From: Bacilli bacterium
Lineage (GTDB): Bacteria; Bacillota_I; Bacilli_A; RF39; UBA660
DNA length: 64,000 bases
Assembly (NCBI GenBank): GCA_017934595.1
Contig: JAGBJG010000009.1
Span: forward strand, 188,839-252,838
Direction of reading: 5' to 3'
The translations under genes and the position numbers were made by a program. The notes below the pieces were generated by a model, which ran no database searches, was not told the origin of the DNA, and saw nothing but the letters and a program-made list of their open reading frames with translations. Below are positions 3,140-55,852 of the stretch, piece by piece. Position 1 is the first letter of the stretch. Each line of letters starts with the position of its first letter.

Positions 3140-4231
3140 ATGTATAAAACTGCTTTAGAATTATTAAAACAAATAAATAGTAATGGATATAAGGCTTATA
3201 TAGTAGGAGGATATCCTAGAGACTTATATCTTAATAGAGAAAGCCTTGATGTAGATATATGTACTAATGCTACTCCAAAAGATTTAAGAAAGATCTTTGG
3301 AGATATAATGTTACCAAAAGAAAGTTATGGTTCAGTAACAGTCGTTAAAAATAAAATAAGATTTGAAATAACAACTTTTAGACGAGATATTAAATATGAA
3401 AACAATAGGACACCATTAGAAATAGAGTATATCAACGATTTAGAAGCTGATTTAAAAAGAAGAGATTTTACTATTAATACATTATGCATTGATAGTGAAG
3501 GTAATACTATTGATTTATTAGACGGTAAAGAAGATTTAGATAATAAGTTAATTAAGATGGTAGGAGATCCAGACGTTAAACTTATGGAAGATGCCTTAAG
3601 AATATTAAGAGCTATAAGATTCGCGGTTACTTTAAATTTTAAAATAGATAAAGAATTAAAAGAATCTATTAAGAAAAATAGATATCTATTAAAAAACTTA
3701 TCATATTTTAGAAAGAAAGATGAATTGGATAAGATATTTACATCACCTAATGTAAGTTATGGTATAGATTTAATTAAGGAATTAGGCCTAGATAAACCAT
3801 TAGATCTATCTAATATAGATAAGTTAGTAGTAACTGATTATTCTATTGGTATATGGGCACAATTAGATGTACTTGATAAATATAGTTTTACTAATAATGA
3901 GAAAAATACTATAAATAAGATAAATGAACTTAGTGATAAAGATGTTTTAGATGTAGATATATTATATAAATACGGTCTATATGTATGCTCAATAGCTGGT
4001 GATATTAAAGGTATTGATAGGACTTTAGTAACAGCTAGTTATAATGCTTTACCAATTAAAAGTAGTGTTGAAATAGTTGTTCAACCAATAGATATAATGG
4101 GTATTTTAAATAAGGAATCAGGTCCATATTTAAAAGTAATTATGACTGATTTAGAATATAAAATATTACATAGTGAATTAGAAAATGACGAAAATATTTT
4201 AATTGATTACATAGTTAAAAATTATAAATAG
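3140..4231 (+). CDS. cca: CCA tRNA nucleotidyltransferase
   Basis: Class II CCA-adding enzyme that builds or repairs the CCA 3' end of tRNAs from CTP and ATP. The pol-beta head carries VGGYPRD at about 22-28 and the metal-binding pair D37xD39, followed by RRDFTINTL and the EDALRILRAIRF segment of the RNA-binding neck. I use the ATG at 3140 because the upstream in-frame TTG at 3128 lies inside the ribosome site TTGGAGGTT. The resulting 363 residues are somewhat short for the family. Both tRNA genes in this window already encode CCA, so the enzyme may act mainly in repair here. Confidence 0.9.
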   Translation: MYKTALELLKQINSNGYKAYIVGGYPRDLYLNRESLDVDICTNATPKDLRKIFGDIMLPKESYGSVTVVKNKIRFEITTFRRDIKYENNRTPLEIEYINDLEADLKRRDFTINTLCIDSEGNTIDLLDGKEDLDNKLIKMVGDPDVKLMEDALRILRAIRFAVTLNFKIDKELKESIKKNRYLLKNLSYFRKKDELDKIFTSPNVSYGIDLIKELGLDKPLDLSNIDKLVVTDYSIGIWAQLDVLDKYSFTNNEKNTINKINELSDKDVLDVDILYKYGLYVCSIAGDIKGIDRTLVTASYNALPIKSSVEIVVQPIDIMGILNKESGPYLKVIMTDLEYKILHSELENDENILIDYIVKNYK

Positions 4232-4785: not shown

Positions 4786-5130
4786 ATGAGTTATAAAATA
4801 GATAGAATAGAAAGCAGTATGGTAAAAGAAGTAAGTTATATTTTAATGACTGAAGTAAAAGATCCTAATGTTAAGTTTGTAACAGTTACAGCTGCAAAAG
4901 TAACTAGTGATTTATCATACGCGAAGATATATGTAACAGTATTAAATAAAGAATATACAAAAGATACATTAAAAGCTTTAAATAATGCTAAAGGATTTAT
5001 TAGAAATGAGTTAAAAGAAAGAATGGATATAAGAAATATTCCTGAATTAGAATTCGTTTATGATGAATCTATTGAATATGGTAATAAGATAGAAAAAATT
5101 ATAGAAGATATTCATAAAGATGATAATTGA
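4786..5130 (+). CDS. rbfA: Ribosome-binding factor A
   Basis: Small KH-like factor that binds the 30S subunit and assists 16S rRNA 5'-end maturation. Family signatures are MSYKIDRIESSMVKEVSYIL at the start, DPNVKFVTVTAAKVTSDLSYAKIYV in the middle and PELEFVYDESIEYGNKIEKII at the end. I chose the ATG at 4786; the in-frame GTG at 4777 is part of the ribosome site TAGGTGAT. The length of 114 residues is normal. An extended -10 (TGATAAAAT, 4760-4768) lies just upstream. Confidence 0.93.
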   Translation: MSYKIDRIESSMVKEVSYILMTEVKDPNVKFVTVTAAKVTSDLSYAKIYVTVLNKEYTKDTLKALNNAKGFIRNELKERMDIRNIPELEFVYDESIEYGNKIEKIIEDIHKDDN

Positions 5131-40489: not shown

Positions 40490-40517
40490 TTGCAAAAAAA
40501 TAAAAATGTGGTACAAT
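40490..40517 (+). promoter_or_regulatory. Promoter of the structured RNA
   Basis: TTGCAA (40490-40495), 16-base spacer, TACAAT (40512-40517). The same TTGCAA -35 is seen for HU and ssb. Confidence 0.75.
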
Positions 40518-40523
40518 AATATT

Positions 40524-40725
40524 GTCTTTGAAAGACAAGAAGTGACATTTATATACAAAGATATTGTATATTATGTATTTGAGTAGATGAGGGTGTAAAT
40601 TCTTCTTGCACTGACGCTTACATAATGTAAGTTGGAGTAGGTTGTACCGAAAGTATACATGTAGAACTGGGAGACTACCATTTACTCAAAAAGCCATACC
40701 TTTTGGGTATGGCTTTATTTATTTT
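40524..40725 (+). ncRNA. Structured noncoding RNA of about 200 nt, family not identified
   Basis: The region has a promoter, no sizeable reading frame and dense pairing: a 5' hairpin TTGTCTTT/AAAGACAA; a closing stem TTGAGTAGATG with CATTTACTCAA (one G-T) that encloses about 90 bases; an inner hairpin CTTACA-TAA-TGTAAG; GTAC-CGAAA-GTAT; and GTAG pairing with CTAC. It ends in a strong terminator hairpin AAGCCATACC/GGTATGGCTT (40691-40715). It is unlike tmRNA, SRP RNA, RNase P RNA and T-boxes. It may be a free-standing RNA or the leader of the nuclease-like gene at 40748. A raiA-type or 6S-type RNA should be tested. Confidence 0.7.
40691..40725 (+). terminator. Terminator hairpin at the end of the structured RNA
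   Basis: Ten-base-pair GC-containing stem AAGCCATACC/GGTATGGCTT with a TTTTG loop, followed by a broken T-tract (TATTTATTTT). Confidence 0.82.
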
Positions 40726-40747
40726 GGAAAAGAGGTGAGGATTATTT

Positions 40748-41149
40748 ATGAGTAAAGTTACTAAAGTTGTTGGTAAAATTAGTCATGAGATTGCTTTAAA
40801 ATATGATTTACATGATTACGAAAACCATAATATTGTGCAATCGTTAGATTTATATGCGCACATTCAAAAGCATATCAGTGAATTCAAAAGTATAGATAGT
40901 TATAATAATAGTGTTTTTAATGTTGATAAAATAATAAATAATCCTTACTTTGTATACTATGATACTAATAGAAATTCGTTGTTATATTACAAAGAAATAG
41001 ATGAGTTTACATGCGTTGTAGTTAAACTTAATATTAGAAAAAATAAAGATATATATGTATCTACTATATATCCTGTTAATAAGTTAAAAATTGAAAAACT
41101 TAAAAGGAAACAATTAATTGAAAAATATACATATCAAGGGGAATTTTAA
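40748..41149 (+). CDS. Small BECR-fold nuclease-like protein
   Basis: 133 residues without signal or membrane segment. H38-I-Q-K-H42, then IINNPYFVYYD, LLYYKEI, TCVVVKL and YVSTIYPV (105-110 for STIYPV) follow the layout of phage Barnase-EndoU-ColicinE5/D-RelE-like (PBECR) RNases, in which His, Lys/Arg and Ser/Thr act in catalysis. A similar pattern ends the TPR protein at 8139. It begins 23 bases after the RNA terminator behind GAGGTGAGG. No antitoxin gene is adjacent. The nuclease call is from pattern and needs profile comparison. Confidence 0.6.
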   Translation: MSKVTKVVGKISHEIALKYDLHDYENHNIVQSLDLYAHIQKHISEFKSIDSYNNSVFNVDKIINNPYFVYYDTNRNSLLYYKEIDEFTCVVVKLNIRKNKDIYVSTIYPVNKLKIEKLKRKQLIEKYTYQGEF

Positions 41150-41777: not shown

Positions 41778-42896
41778 ATGAAAGGGAATAAAAAGAATTT
41801 AGAAGAATTAATTAGTTCTTCAAAAAAATTAGTTAAATTACTATATGTTATCTTCATTATACTTGGTGTATATGTCGGTATCTTAGTATTTAATGCATTA
41901 GGTATTGGTAAATTTTTACTTACATTACTTAAAATATTATTACCATTATTTATTGGTATATTAATAGCTTGGTTATTTAAACCACTAGTAGCTAAGTTAC
42001 AAGCTAAAGGAATGAGAAAAGGATTAGCTTGTAGTTTGGTATACATTTTATTTGTAGGTATTATTGCATGGATATTATTTACATTAATTCCATTATTATA
42101 TAATCAAACTAATGATTTAATTAATCAAATACCTACTATTTCAAATAATGTTCAAGAGTGGGTTAATAATACATTTGATAAATTAGACAATATTCCTGGT
42201 GTTAGTGCTGATGATATTAAATTGAGTTTAATGTCTAAATTACAAACATTTGGTAATGAATTAGCTTCATCACTACCTGAAAAGATTGTTAAAATAGCTA
42301 CATCATTTATTTCAGGAGCAGGAACATTCTTATTAGGATTAGTAATTGGATTCTTTATACTTATTAGTATTGATAGTCCATTAGAAGCAGTAAGAGATTT
42401 CTTGCCTAAGAAAGCTAGAGATACATTTGAAGGTATCGTATCAAGTATTAATGGTGCAGCTAGAAGTTTTATATCAGGCGCGATTATTGATAGTACATTA
42501 GTATTTGTAGTAACAAGTTTACTTTTATGGATAGTTGGTTTAAAAGCACCTTTACTATTTGGTCTATTCTGTGGTATAACTAATATTATCCCATATGCAG
42601 GACCATATATTGGTGGTGCGCCTGCTGTAATAGTAGGTTTATCACAAGGACCTATAACTGGTTTATTAGTACTAGCTATGTTAGTAATTATTCAAACTCT
42701 AGAAGGTAGTTTCATTCAACCTTTAATTATGAGTAAATCAACTAAATTACATCCAGTAACAATCATGATGGGATTATTAATATTTGGTCATTTCTGGGGT
42801 ATTCCTGGTATGTTTATATCAACTCCATTAATGGCTGCTATTAAAGCTGTATTTGTATATTTAGATGAAAGATTTGGTATATTTAATTTTAAGTAG
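41778..42896 (+). CDS. AI-2E family transporter
   Basis: 372 residues of the PF01594-type permease with about seven or eight membrane helices: LLKILLPLFIGILIAWLFKPLV, a hydrophilic insert (about 100-165) and GLKAPLLFGLFCGITNIIPYAGPYIGGAPAVIVGLSQG, then QTLEGSFIQPLIMSKSTKLHPVTIMMGLLIFGHFWGIPGMFISTPLMA. Members export diverse substrates or act as sodium/proton antiporters; the AI-2 role is true for few. It follows frr after 8 bases. Confidence 0.92.
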   Translation: MKGNKKNLEELISSSKKLVKLLYVIFIILGVYVGILVFNALGIGKFLLTLLKILLPLFIGILIAWLFKPLVAKLQAKGMRKGLACSLVYILFVGIIAWILFTLIPLLYNQTNDLINQIPTISNNVQEWVNNTFDKLDNIPGVSADDIKLSLMSKLQTFGNELASSLPEKIVKIATSFISGAGTFLLGLVIGFFILISIDSPLEAVRDFLPKKARDTFEGIVSSINGAARSFISGAIIDSTLVFVVTSLLLWIVGLKAPLLFGLFCGITNIIPYAGPYIGGAPAVIVGLSQGPITGLLVLAMLVIIQTLEGSFIQPLIMSKSTKLHPVTIMMGLLIFGHFWGIPGMFISTPLMAAIKAVFVYLDERFGIFNFK

Positions 42897-42934
42897 AAAA
42901 CAATAATGAAAGATTAGTATATAGTTTTTGTTTT

Positions 42935-43092
42935 ACAGAAAGTTAGTGGTTGATGGAAACTAATAAATAAGACTATAGAAGCTCCTTTCTAGTGTAGTTA
43001 ATAACTACCGGGTAAAACCGTTATCGAATTGAGTTTAATTAGGATGGTACCACGGATTTTCGTTCCTAGATATGGTATCATCTTTTTTGTTT
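42935..43092 (+). promoter_or_regulatory. T-box leader, alanine-specific
   Basis: Apical motif AGTTAGTGGTTGATGGAAACT at about 42940-42960, specifier segment TAGAA-GCT-CCTTTCTAG with GCU (Ala) at 42981-42983, and antiterminator core ATGGTACCACGGATT. The terminator is GATGGTACC (about 43044-43052) pairing with GGTATCATC, then six T residues at about 43084-43088. It controls the operon that ends with alaS, consistent with the Ala specifier; the two genes in between are nucleotide kinases. Confidence 0.92.
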
Positions 43093-43104: not shown

Positions 43105-43650
43105 ATGGAATTTGTAAAGAAAAATACTAAGATTTATATTTTAAGTGGTAAATCTGGATCTGGTAAAGATACAGTAGCTTCTATGATTAAGAATATGATT
43201 AATAAGAAAGTTATTTCACTAGCCTATGCAAGCTATCTAAAGATGTACGCTAAAGAAGTATTGGGTTGGGATGGCAATGATCCTAAACCAAGAGATTTCT
43301 TACAACAACTTGGTGTAGAATTAATTAAAAATAACATTGATAAAAAAATGTTAGTAAGAAGAATGATAGAAGATATAAAAGTATATAATTATTTTTATGA
43401 TGTAATTATTATAACTGATGCAAGATTCCCTGATGAAATAGATGATATTAAAGCAAACTTTGATAATGTTACAGTCTTGCATTTATCTGATAGGGAAAAT
43501 AAATTAACTGATAAAGAAAAGATGCACGCAACTGAAACTTCATTAAATAATTATAATAATTATGATTATGTAGTATCTGAAGATAATTTAGATGATTTAT
43601 CTAATACTATAGAAAAAATAATAGGTGAGACATATGATAGTCGCGATTGA
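43105..43650 (+). CDS. P-loop (deoxy)nucleoside monophosphate kinase-like protein
   Basis: 181 residues. Walker A GKSGSGKDT at 15-23; ASYLKMYAKEVLGWDGNDPKPRDFLQQLGVELIK and IIITDARFPDEIDDIKANF resemble dNMP kinases of phage and Firmicutes, with an RFPxE lid-type motif. It could also be a dephospho-CoA-kinase-like enzyme. ATG 43105 is placed by AGGAGG; the longer in-frame start at 43072 overlaps the T-box terminator. It is the first gene of the Ala T-box operon and overlaps cmk by 17 bases. Confidence 0.75.
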   Translation: MEFVKKNTKIYILSGKSGSGKDTVASMIKNMINKKVISLAYASYLKMYAKEVLGWDGNDPKPRDFLQQLGVELIKNNIDKKMLVRRMIEDIKVYNYFYDVIIITDARFPDEIDDIKANFDNVTVLHLSDRENKLTDKEKMHATETSLNNYNNYDYVVSEDNLDDLSNTIEKIIGETYDSRD

Positions 43651-44278
43651 TGGACCTGCTGGTAGTGGTAAGGGGACAGTATCTAAAAAACTATCAGAAT
43701 TATGTGGATTAACTTATATTGATACAGGTGCTACTTATAGATGTATTGCTTTAAAAGTTTTACAAAATAATGTTGATTTAGATGATATTGGTGCTATAAT
43801 AGATATCGCTTCTAAAATTAATATTAAATTTACAAAGGACGCCAAAACATTTATGGATGGCATAGATGTATCTGAAGCTATCAGGACTATGGAAGTAACT
43901 AAAATAGTTTCTCCTATATCTAGTATTCCAGAAGTAAGAAGTTATATGGTGGATTTACAAAGAAAAATGGCTGATAGTAATGATATTATCATGGAAGGTA
44001 GAGATATAACTACTATTGTATTTCCTAATGCAGATTACAAATTCTATTTAGACGCAAATGTAGATGAAAGAGTAGAAAGAAGATATAAACAAAACATAGA
44101 AAAAGGAATAAATAGTAGTAGAGAAGAAATAAAAAAATCTATTATAGATAGAGATTATAATGATATACATAAAGTTGTAGGTTTTCTTAAAAGAACTGAT
44201 GAACAAGTATATATAGATACTTCAAATATGGCTATAGATGAAGTAGTAGATGAGATAAGAAAGGTGATTAAAAGATGA
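43634..44278 (+). CDS. cmk: Cytidylate kinase
   Basis: 214 residues: MIVAIDGPAGSGKGTVSKKLSELCGLTYIDTGATYRCIAL is the CMP kinase start, followed by MEGRDITTIVFPNADYKFYLDANVDERVERRYKQ and RDYNDIHKVVGFLKRTDEQVYIDTSNM. It phosphorylates CMP and dCMP. ATG 43634 is used since GGTGAGA lies just before it. It sits between another nucleotide kinase and alaS with overlaps on both sides, so all are under the Ala T-box. Catalytic RDxxR-type lid residues (SIIDRDYND) look intact. Confidence 0.94.
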   Translation: MIVAIDGPAGSGKGTVSKKLSELCGLTYIDTGATYRCIALKVLQNNVDLDDIGAIIDIASKINIKFTKDAKTFMDGIDVSEAIRTMEVTKIVSPISSIPEVRSYMVDLQRKMADSNDIIMEGRDITTIVFPNADYKFYLDANVDERVERRYKQNIEKGINSSREEIKKSIIDRDYNDIHKVVGFLKRTDEQVYIDTSNMAIDEVVDEIRKVIKR

Positions 44279-46017
44279 ATTTAAAAGATATGTATATAGA
44301 GTTCTTTGAAAGTAAAGGACATAAAAGAATTCCTAGTGCTCCTGTAGTACCAGAAAATGATGCATCAGTATTATTTAATACAGCTGGTATGCAACCATTA
44401 ATTCCTTATTTAATGGGTCAACCACATCCTTATGGAACTAGATTATGTGATTATCAAAAATGTATAAGAACTAATGATTTAGATGCCATAGGTGATACTT
44501 ACCATCATACATTCTTTGAAATGTTAGGTAACTGGAGTTTAGGTGATTACTTTAAAAAAGAAGCGATTACTTGGAGTTTTGAATTTGTAACTAAATATTT
44601 AAATATTCCGTTAGAAAGATTCGCGGTTACAGTATTTGCAGGTAATGATTTAATACCTGAAGATAAAGAAGCTATAGAATTATGGAAAAGTTTAGGTATA
44701 AAAGAAGATAGAATAGCTAAGACAGTAGAAGATAATTTCTGGATAGCAGGTGAGTCTGGACCTTGTGGACCAGATACTGAAATGTTTTATTGGAGAAGTA
44801 ATGATCCAGTACCTGATAAATTTGATCCTGAAGATAATAGATGGGTAGAAATCTGGAATAATGTATTTATGCAATTTAATAAAAAAGTAGATGGTACTAT
44901 AGAAGAATTACCTAAGAAAAATGTAGATACAGGTATGGGAGTTGAGAGAGTTACATCAATATTAGAAGGTGTTAATGATAACTATATGTCTTCTATTTGG
45001 AAAGATGTAATTGAATTAATTGAAGAATTATCACCATATACTTATTCTGAAAGACCAGAAAGTATGAGAATTATAGCTGACCATATTAGGACGTCTGTAT
45101 TTATCATAGCTGATCCAGCTGGTATAAGACCTTCTAATACAGATCAAGGTTATATCTTAAGAAGATTAATTAGAAGAATGATTAGACACGCTAAAAAATT
45201 AGATATTGATATTAATAGTAATTTTGAAGAATTATTAGCTAATAAGATTATTGATAAATATGCTAAATACTATAGTGAATTATCTAACAAAGATATTATT
45301 ATTGAAGTATTAAAAAATGAAAAAGTTAAATTTAGTCGTACACTAGAAAAAGGTTTAAGAGAATTTGAAAAAGTATCTGATAAAGATATCGATGGTGTAA
45401 CTGCTTTCCATTTATTTGATACTTATGGATTCCCATTAGAATTAACTGAAGAATTAGCTAATGAAAAAGGTATAAAAGTAGATGTAGATGGATTCAATAA
45501 GAAATTCAAAGAACATCAAGAATTATCTAGAACTGCATCAGCTGGTAAATTTAAAGGTGGTTTAGCTGGTAATAGTGAAATTGAAACAAGATATCATACA
45601 GCTACACATTTACTTAATGCAGCTTTAAAGAAAGTAATTGGTCCTACTGTACATCAAATGGGTTCAAATATTACTGATGAGAGAATGCGTTTTGACTTTA
45701 GTTGTGATCATAAATTAACTGATGAAGAAAAAGCTAAAGCTGAAGAAATCGTTAATAATTGGATTAAAGAAGGTTTAAACGTTACCGTAGAAGAAATGAG
45801 TAAAGAAGATGCTATTAATAGTGGTGCTGAATGTATGTTTATAGAAAAGTATCCTGATAGAGTAACAGTTTATTCAATTGGAAATGATGAAGTTGTATCT
45901 AAAGAATTATGTGGTGGTCCACATGTTAAGAATACAAGTGAAATCGGTGAATTCCATATTATTAAAGAAGAAGCATCTTCAGCAGGTGTAAGAAGAATTA
46001 AAGCAGTAATAAAATAA
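44275..46017 (+). CDS. alaS: Alanyl-tRNA synthetase, short form without C-terminal domain
   Basis: 580 residues. The class II catalytic core (FNTAGMQPLIPYLMG, HHTFFEMLGNWSLGDYFKKEAI, WIAGESGPCGPDTEMF) and tRNA-recognition domain are normal. The editing domain keeps its zinc/water site: H441xxxH445 and C546-G-G-P-H550. The protein stops about 30 residues after this motif, so the coiled-coil and C-Ala (DHHA1) domain of about 250 residues in usual AlaRS are missing. The stop is followed by a good terminator, so it is not an assembly break. Short AlaRS is known from reduced genomes. Controlled by the Ala T-box. Confidence 0.95.
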   Translation: MNLKDMYIEFFESKGHKRIPSAPVVPENDASVLFNTAGMQPLIPYLMGQPHPYGTRLCDYQKCIRTNDLDAIGDTYHHTFFEMLGNWSLGDYFKKEAITWSFEFVTKYLNIPLERFAVTVFAGNDLIPEDKEAIELWKSLGIKEDRIAKTVEDNFWIAGESGPCGPDTEMFYWRSNDPVPDKFDPEDNRWVEIWNNVFMQFNKKVDGTIEELPKKNVDTGMGVERVTSILEGVNDNYMSSIWKDVIELIEELSPYTYSERPESMRIIADHIRTSVFIIADPAGIRPSNTDQGYILRRLIRRMIRHAKKLDIDINSNFEELLANKIIDKYAKYYSELSNKDIIIEVLKNEKVKFSRTLEKGLREFEKVSDKDIDGVTAFHLFDTYGFPLELTEELANEKGIKVDVDGFNKKFKEHQELSRTASAGKFKGGLAGNSEIETRYHTATHLLNAALKKVIGPTVHQMGSNITDERMRFDFSCDHKLTDEEKAKAEEIVNNWIKEGLNVTVEEMSKEDAINSGAECMFIEKYPDRVTVYSIGNDEVVSKELCGGPHVKNTSEIGEFHIIKEEASSAGVRRIKAVIK

Positions 46018-55425: not shown

Positions 55426-55659
55426 ATGAAAAAGAAAATTTATCGTTCAGAATCAGATAGAAGAATCGCTGGTGTATGTGGAGGTATTGGTGAATATTTT
55501 GATGTAGATTCTACATTAATTAGACTTGCATTTGTATTCTTCGTTTTAGCTGCTGGTACTGGTATTTTAGCTTATGTAATTGCAGCTATTATAATGCCAA
55601 ACGAATCAGAAGTTGAAATGGTAATAAAAAAAGATAGTAAAAAGAAAAAAAGTGAATAA
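55426..55659 (+). CDS. PspC domain protein
   Basis: 77 residues: KKKIYRSESDRRIAGVCGGIGEYFDVDSTLIRLAFVFFVLAAGTGILAYVIAAIIMPNE is a full PspC domain with one or two membrane passes, and a lysine-rich tail follows. PspC proteins act in envelope-stress responses in Gram-positives. ATG 55426 with GGGATGA; the upstream in-frame start at 55402 lies in the microprotein frame overlap and is rejected. It is the last gene of the small membrane-protein operon. Confidence 0.92.
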   Translation: MKKKIYRSESDRRIAGVCGGIGEYFDVDSTLIRLAFVFFVLAAGTGILAYVIAAIIMPNESEVEMVIKKDSKKKKSE

Positions 55660-55689
55660 GACATTGATAAAAGAAAAGTATATTAATAA

Positions 55690-55852
55690 TTATTTATAGA
55701 GAGTTAGTGGTTGGTGTAAACTAATAGTAATTATGATAGAAAGAAACTTTTGAGTTTTATACGTTAACTCGCGTTAAGAGGAAAGATAGATATCTATGAA
55801 ATAAGGTGGTACCACGGTAATGCGTCCTTATATTATAGGTATCTTTTTGTTT
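55690..55852 (+). promoter_or_regulatory. T-box leader, glutamate-specific
   Basis: Apical motif GAGTTAGTGGTTGGTGTAAA at about 55700-55720, specifier segment ATAGAAA-GAA-ACTTTTGAG with GAA (Glu) at 55743-55745, and antiterminator core GGTGGTACCACGG (about 55806-55818). The terminator stem AGATATCTAT...CCTTATATTATAGGTATCT is followed by TTTTTG. It leads directly into gltX. Confidence 0.93.

Follow-up and report, generated by a model that had tools for sequence, protein, structure and literature searches.

A structured RNA and a predicted PBECR3 ribonuclease form a candidate RNA antitoxin module in Bacilli and their prophages

In the type III toxin-antitoxin systems ToxIN, CptIN and TenpIN, a promoter, an antitoxin RNA, a terminator and an endoribonuclease gene follow one another in that order (PMC5086642), and in the AbiF-RCd22 module of C. 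difficile prophages, a noncoding RNA (ncRNA) was shown experimentally to bind its toxin directly and so to neutralise it, both in cis and in trans (PMC12373285). The RNA of that module carries the short abiF motif (RF03085), of which RCd22 has two copies (PMC12373285). Here we analysed a stretch of 64,000 nucleotides from a Bacilli bacterium (GCA_017934595.1, contig JAGBJG010000009.1), referred to as the window, in which positions 40490-41149 of the + strand hold a promoter-like site, a structured RNA, an intrinsic terminator and the gene of a 133-amino-acid (aa) protein, in this order. The unit shares with type III systems the RNA upstream of a predicted ribonuclease (RNase) gene and the intrinsic terminator between them, and its likeness to AbiF-RCd22 would extend to a prophage lysis region, a single promoter, a structured ncRNA, a Rho-independent terminator and an RNase-like toxin gene that is transcribed by read-through. 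To our knowledge, toxin-binding RNA antitoxins are known for few kinds of toxin, which are MazF-like ToxN, AbiF HEPN proteins and the AvcD deaminase. With a probability of about two in three, we consider the unit to be an RNA-antitoxin and RNase module comparable to type III systems or AbiF-RCd22, its antitoxin function being one that we infer from sequence and analogy.

The RNA family is absent from Rfam 15 and has covariation enough to be added, although a prior listing elsewhere, such as in the supplementary tables of PMC8040213 on structured RNAs of the microbiome, is conceivable. In Rfam scans, no family matched it; raiA and other families gave nothing at or above gathering score there, 6S (RF00013) had no match at this position, and the abiF motif RF03085 was not matched even to an E-value of 10 around the RNA. 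A likely divergent 6S of the source genome was located on another contig (G000:C12:34657-34820, L037), scoring 42.6 bits against a gathering score of 46.4. The earlier note on this DNA had allowed for an unrelated RNA, such as 6S or raiA, placed there by chance. We reject this alternative, because no housekeeping or other Rfam family matched, the probable 6S is found at a different place in the genome and the pairing of RNA and gene is recurrent (see below). Neither a tandem repeat nor a spacer-like variable region was apparent in the window RNA.

As judged by comparison of homologues, the fold of this RNA is more than chance and strongly backed by covariation. The fold energy of the window RNA was -53.2 kcal/mol (z = -3.8), which none of 200 shuffles equalled. 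When the named structure was compared with 44 sequences of the same type (type 1), 85% of cells were paired and 20 pairs showed changes on both sides; the covariation score was 0.343 compared with 0.163 for shuffled alignments, none of 500 shuffles reached it, and control structures slid along the alignment scored far lower. A model-fitted alignment of 49 distinct rows, biased toward the structure, gave 93% of cells paired and a score of 0.542. The core (40579-40689) is closed by the P1 stem TTGAGTAGATG/CATTTACTCAA (40579-40589/40679-40689), which the earlier note had picked out and which turned out to be the best-supported helix, with double changes in 10 of its 10 counted pairs. Within it are the P2 hairpin with a pyrimidine loop (40592-40612, stem 40592-40598/40606-40612; 98-99% of homologue cells paired), P3 (40616-40632, stem 40616-40621/40627-40632; three double-change pairs, 99% of cells paired) and the short P4 (40640-40648, stem 40640-40642/40646-40648), in which 99-100% of cells were paired and both sides of the outer two pairs had changed, for instance from GC to AU. 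The P5 hairpin (40661-40678, stem 40661-40664/40675-40678) presents the loop AACTGGGAGA, and no other part of type 1 RNAs is as strongly conserved. Its length differs by one base pair among homologues, a variation below the resolution of the alignments (76-81% of cells paired), so that its support comes from reading by hand, where GTAGG/CCTAC and GTAAG/CTTAC variants were seen, and from the P5 of type 2 RNAs.

The loops of P2 and P5 may pair with each other in a kissing loop, with TCTTCT (40601-40606) as the 5′ side and GGGAGA (40669-40674) as the 3′ side. Complementarity is kept while the loop sequences differ between RNA types (TCTTCT/AGAGGG, TCGGTG/AGCCAT and GATGG/CTATC, partners written antiparallel), with permutation p values of 0.001-0.0024. 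With loop boundaries set by hand and a sample of 8-10, we consider the kissing loop supported, not proven. Sequestration of the Shine-Dalgarno sequence by the P2 loop was also considered and set aside; reasoning from the loop sequences, it is possible for type 1, whereas type 2 P2 loops are not anti-Shine-Dalgarno-like.

The elements flanking the core were largely as the earlier note had described them. Of its promoter, a site at 40490-40517 stands (TTGCAA, 16 nt, TACAAT, with TG preceding the -10 element), although a 9/12 match to the consensus is weak evidence alone. A 5′ hairpin at 40545-40576 occupies the interval between promoter and core, and its sequence is not conserved among homologues when upstream regions are compared by eye. 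The strong terminator (40690-40726) consists of a 12-bp stem-loop at 40690-40716 and a T-rich tail, and terminator-like sites in the stretch of the unit numbered 3 where 0.1 were expected. The noted distance of 23 bases to the gene is right only when the terminator is taken to include its T-rich tail; from the end of the stem to the ATG, the distance is 31 bases. The ribosome binding site AAGAGGTGA (40730-40738) precedes the gene at 40748-41149.

The BECR (Barnase-EndoU-ColicinE5-RelE) fold is shared by RelE, barnase and colicin D/E5 relatives, and the 133-aa protein is a predicted RNase of this fold, in agreement with the BECR-like nuclease proposed earlier. It matched PF18812 (PBECR3) with E=3.2e-12 and 46.8 bits against a gathering cut-off of 30; Pfam otherwise returned PBECR2, weakly, and nothing else, so HEPN Abi_2 was not among its matches. 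PHROGs, NCBIfam and PADLOC gave nothing useful for the protein, a sequence search of PDB found no relative, and cultured phage records held no match. A confident AlphaFold2 model (predicted local distance difference test, pLDDT, 92.1; predicted template modelling score, pTM, 0.86) was obtained from 31 window and locus sequences, with the plasmid row left out. Foldseek searches with this model returned C-terminal MuF and PBECR-type domains of phages in BFVD (best E 4.8e-4) and, at the top of the PDB matches, the RelE-type toxins HigB2 and BrnT, which are individually weak (best E 0.04). The HIxxH ... STIYPV pattern noticed earlier is present as HIQKH and STIYPV. The predicted active-site residues are H38, in helix 35-45 of the model and conserved in 34 of 35 homologues, and T106, in strand 102-109 and present as T or S in 35 of 35; they agree with the BECR active site as given in PMC5512222, a histidine in an N-terminal helix and a serine or threonine in a late strand. 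The family is basic (median isoelectric point 9.3), and ratios of nonsynonymous to synonymous change (dN/dS) of 0.02-0.33 among homologues indicate that the gene is under purifying selection.

Since blastn with the RNA gave only short matches in relatives, mostly to the promoter stretch, relatives were sought through the protein. The promoter stretch (40490-40535, query 1-46) has such short matches elsewhere in the same and in related genomes, and is probably a common promoter sequence. Protein searches (193 family genomes) found homologues with the same order of RNA, terminator and gene upstream in other genera, in keeping with the toxin-antitoxin-like layout of the earlier note. All 16 solo PBECR3 genes of clade A found by protein searches have the RNA, 15 of them intact and one with a stop: the window gene, L026, L027, L028, L029, L030, L032, L035, L036, L038 (= L040), L039, L041, L045, L201, L203 and L044, which has the internal stop. 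Outside the 16 are L031, a truncated pseudogene without RNA, and L033/L034, which are weak, different matches. A second solo PBECR3 clade (L042, L196, L198, L199) is without such an RNA upstream, and its motif resembles FLGTSNIxHMKxxHP. PBECR3 matches also occur inside very large proteins (L047-L049).

The reverse search, in which the pattern of the RNA core was used alone without reference to the gene, matched 45 genome contigs plus two viral contigs from IMG/VR. The weak R1 matches L214 (21.9 bits) and L213 (34.8 bits) were not counted. A PBECR3 match lies within 900 nt downstream in 32 of the 45 genome contigs, and a few of these 32 genes are damaged (L083, L090). With its recurrence in dozens of metagenome-assembled genomes of Bacilli and in both IMG/VR contigs, the order of RNA, terminator and gene is not a matter of chance. 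Several loci have a place in prophage lysis regions: an M23 endolysin immediately precedes the pair in one viral contig, and at L027, L035, L041 and L063 endolysin-like genes are nearby. Others are at chromosomal sites; at the prmC-frr site, gene order differs in relatives according to an empty-site comparison. Some RNAs, orphan or paired (L064, L082, L084, L092, L252), adjoin genes that by eye look like toxin-antitoxin genes (PemK/MazF-like, RelBE-like and Phd/Txe-like).

A diverged type 2 RNA (AAGTGTAG...GATRAGAT) shares the P1-P5 plan and precedes a second protein subgroup. Its carriers are Bacilli, the viral contig L107 (IMG/VR) and the Mycoplasmatota plasmid CP074574; the type 2 pattern has 99 matches in viral contigs, of which nearly all are probably chance and one, L107, has the gene. 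Taken separately, type 2 RNAs also covary (0.374 compared with 0.225, 0/500 shuffles, n=8). RNA type tracks protein subgroup, type 1 occurring with IVQS..HxxKH proteins and type 2 with IVLY..HxEKH proteins, and within type 1 the distances between RNAs and between proteins are correlated (Mantel r=0.75). At L032/L072, both types occur in succession, type 1 first and then type 2 with its gene; the L032 tandem, on the complement at 1919-2419, comprises a gene-less type 1 RNA, a repeated promoter region, and an RNA and PBECR3 gene that are both of type 2.

In the other 13 of the 45 RNA-selected contigs, the PBECR3 gene is absent or has left only remnants, which are recognisable at L059, L086 and L092. 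Orphan RNAs can be nearly identical to those of gene-bearing relatives (117/118 for L064, 115/118 for L086 and 115/116 for L092), and L211 and L073 look decayed. Four loci (L078, L085, L092, L095) occur at one common site behind rpsI, and the gene is kept only in L085. For the three orphans at this site, synonymous distances (dS) of rpsI were 0.37-0.98 and RNA distances 0.091-0.124; the RNA distances are thus 4- to 9-fold lower, which supports constraint on the RNA, with the caveat that a pattern search selects intact RNAs and that the gene losses may be of any age. Type 2 orphans were found as well (L251, L252, L253), and in G471 an orphan and an RNA-gene pair, the latter with a stop in its gene, are approximately 4.4 kb apart. 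L093 carries two type 1 RNAs approximately 0.9 kb apart (4061-4197 and 4948-5085), neither with a PBECR3 gene behind it.

A terminator follows P1 in 34 of 34 type 1 loci that have the gene, a set that includes near-identical loci, and in 10 of 13 orphans. Because of this regularity and the short distance of 31 bases from stem to ATG in the window, the gene most likely needs read-through, with more RNA than mRNA being made. In the module that we propose, one promoter would yield mostly a short terminated RNA of approximately 200 nt, and occasional read-through of the terminator would yield the mRNA of the small basic PBECR3 RNase. The RNA core, consisting of P1-P5 and the P2-P5 kissing loop, would bind and block the RNase, and the terminator would hold the RNA in excess over the enzyme, as in type III systems and AbiF-RCd22. 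The unit would travel with prophages, near the endolysin, and is also present at scattered chromosomal sites; once freed, the RNase might stop growth or protect the element. The analysis establishes the fold of the RNA, its conserved association with the gene, the terminator, the predicted fold and active-site residues of the RNase, the purifying selection on its gene and the survival of RNAs whose gene is lost, whereas we infer the transcription pattern, the toxicity, the direct inhibition of protein by RNA and the biological role. In small gut bacteria and their prophages, the RNA most likely serves as antidote to a toxin-like enzyme, and it often outlasts the decay of the enzyme's gene.

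Several observations weigh against such a module: the RNA is non-repetitive, unlike classical type III antitoxins, most loci are contigs of metagenome-assembled genomes, the Mantel correlation is as expected for partners but also for simple co-inheritance, and the orphan RNAs would also suit an RNA with a job of its own. The RNA might instead be a cis-acting sensor leader that a signal (phage product, metabolite or tRNA) refolds to permit read-through into the RNase gene, with no inhibition of the protein itself. The terminator directly behind P1 in every gene-bearing type 1 locus and the complex conserved junctions, reminiscent of a riboswitch aptamer, suit a leader of this kind, which we nevertheless regard as unlikely: many conserved copies stand without the nuclease gene or before unrelated genes, sometimes after deletion of the gene, and inspection by eye, which was not a systematic search, revealed no conserved antiterminator that would pair with the arms of the terminator. 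Because stand-alone RNAs with a lost gene recur, a trans-acting RNA is favoured over a leader.

Such a trans-acting RNA could also be an independent small RNA with a cellular or phage role, the RNase gene being a frequent passenger or processing enzyme. This would explain why the RNA is still conserved in the 13 contigs without an intact gene, and it suits the three type 2 orphans; a passenger, however, predicts neither the presence of the RNA at 16 of 16 clade-A solo genes nor the matching of RNA type to protein subgroup, which makes this explanation improbable. The close match between the types of RNA and of protein would suit an RNA that guides or activates the RNase in an active complex without inhibiting it, and AbiF-type modules have been proposed as ancestors of Cas13 (PMC12373285). 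RNAs without a gene and nuclease genes in decay are frequent, however, and with no spacer-like variable region apparent in the RNA, we give an activated enzyme very little credence.

Elsewhere in the window, two T-box leaders scored slightly over the Rfam gathering score (42894-43070 and 55655-55832). Downstream of the former come an open reading frame (ORF) at 43072, another at 43625 that resembles cytidylate kinase, and alaS at 44275. The alanyl-tRNA synthetase ORF (44275-46017) encodes 580 aa, which we take to be shorter than usual, perhaps by lack of the C-terminal region.

Compared with the described systems, the proposed module is a variant that works like type III and AbiF and is not a member of either, since two features that define classical type III systems, and both AbiF features tested, are absent from it. 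Classical type III systems have a tandem-repeat antitoxin and a toxin of the MazF/Kid-like ToxN fold, whereas the window RNA has no repeats and its protein has PBECR/MuF-C and RelE-like matches instead. The AbiF-RCd22 toxin is a HEPN Abi_2 protein and its RNA an abiF motif, whereas the toxin candidate here is a PBECR3 protein of predicted BECR fold and the RNA a single five-helix structure with a proposed kissing loop. The type II toxins RelE, HigB and BrnT, related in fold by the weak structural matches to HigB2 and BrnT, have a protein from an adjacent gene as their antitoxin, and the window unit has no such neighbouring gene. Solo PBECR versions are known in phages, and the available text of PMC5512222 describes no partner RNA for phage polyvalent or MuF PBECR domains; the clade-B solo PBECR3 loci are likewise without one. 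In the literature, PBECR3 turned up by name in a single paper on another subject, and an RNA partner of PBECR did not turn up. The working principle is known; not described in the sources consulted are the fold of the nuclease, the family of the RNA and the repeated occurrence of stand-alone RNAs.

We put forward, tentatively and with the odds against it, that these loci are a new class of toxin-antitoxin system, in which a BECR-fold RNase is silenced by one compact, non-repetitive kissing-loop RNA and the orphans serve as immunity genes against nuclease-bearing prophages. If true, RNA antitoxins would extend to the BECR fold, and phage PBECR nucleases would be linked to RNA control in a small system that lends itself to experiment. 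RNAs that persist as orphans beyond their nuclease gene would then be unusual RNA immunity genes, through which the persistence of solitary RNA antitoxins could be tested.
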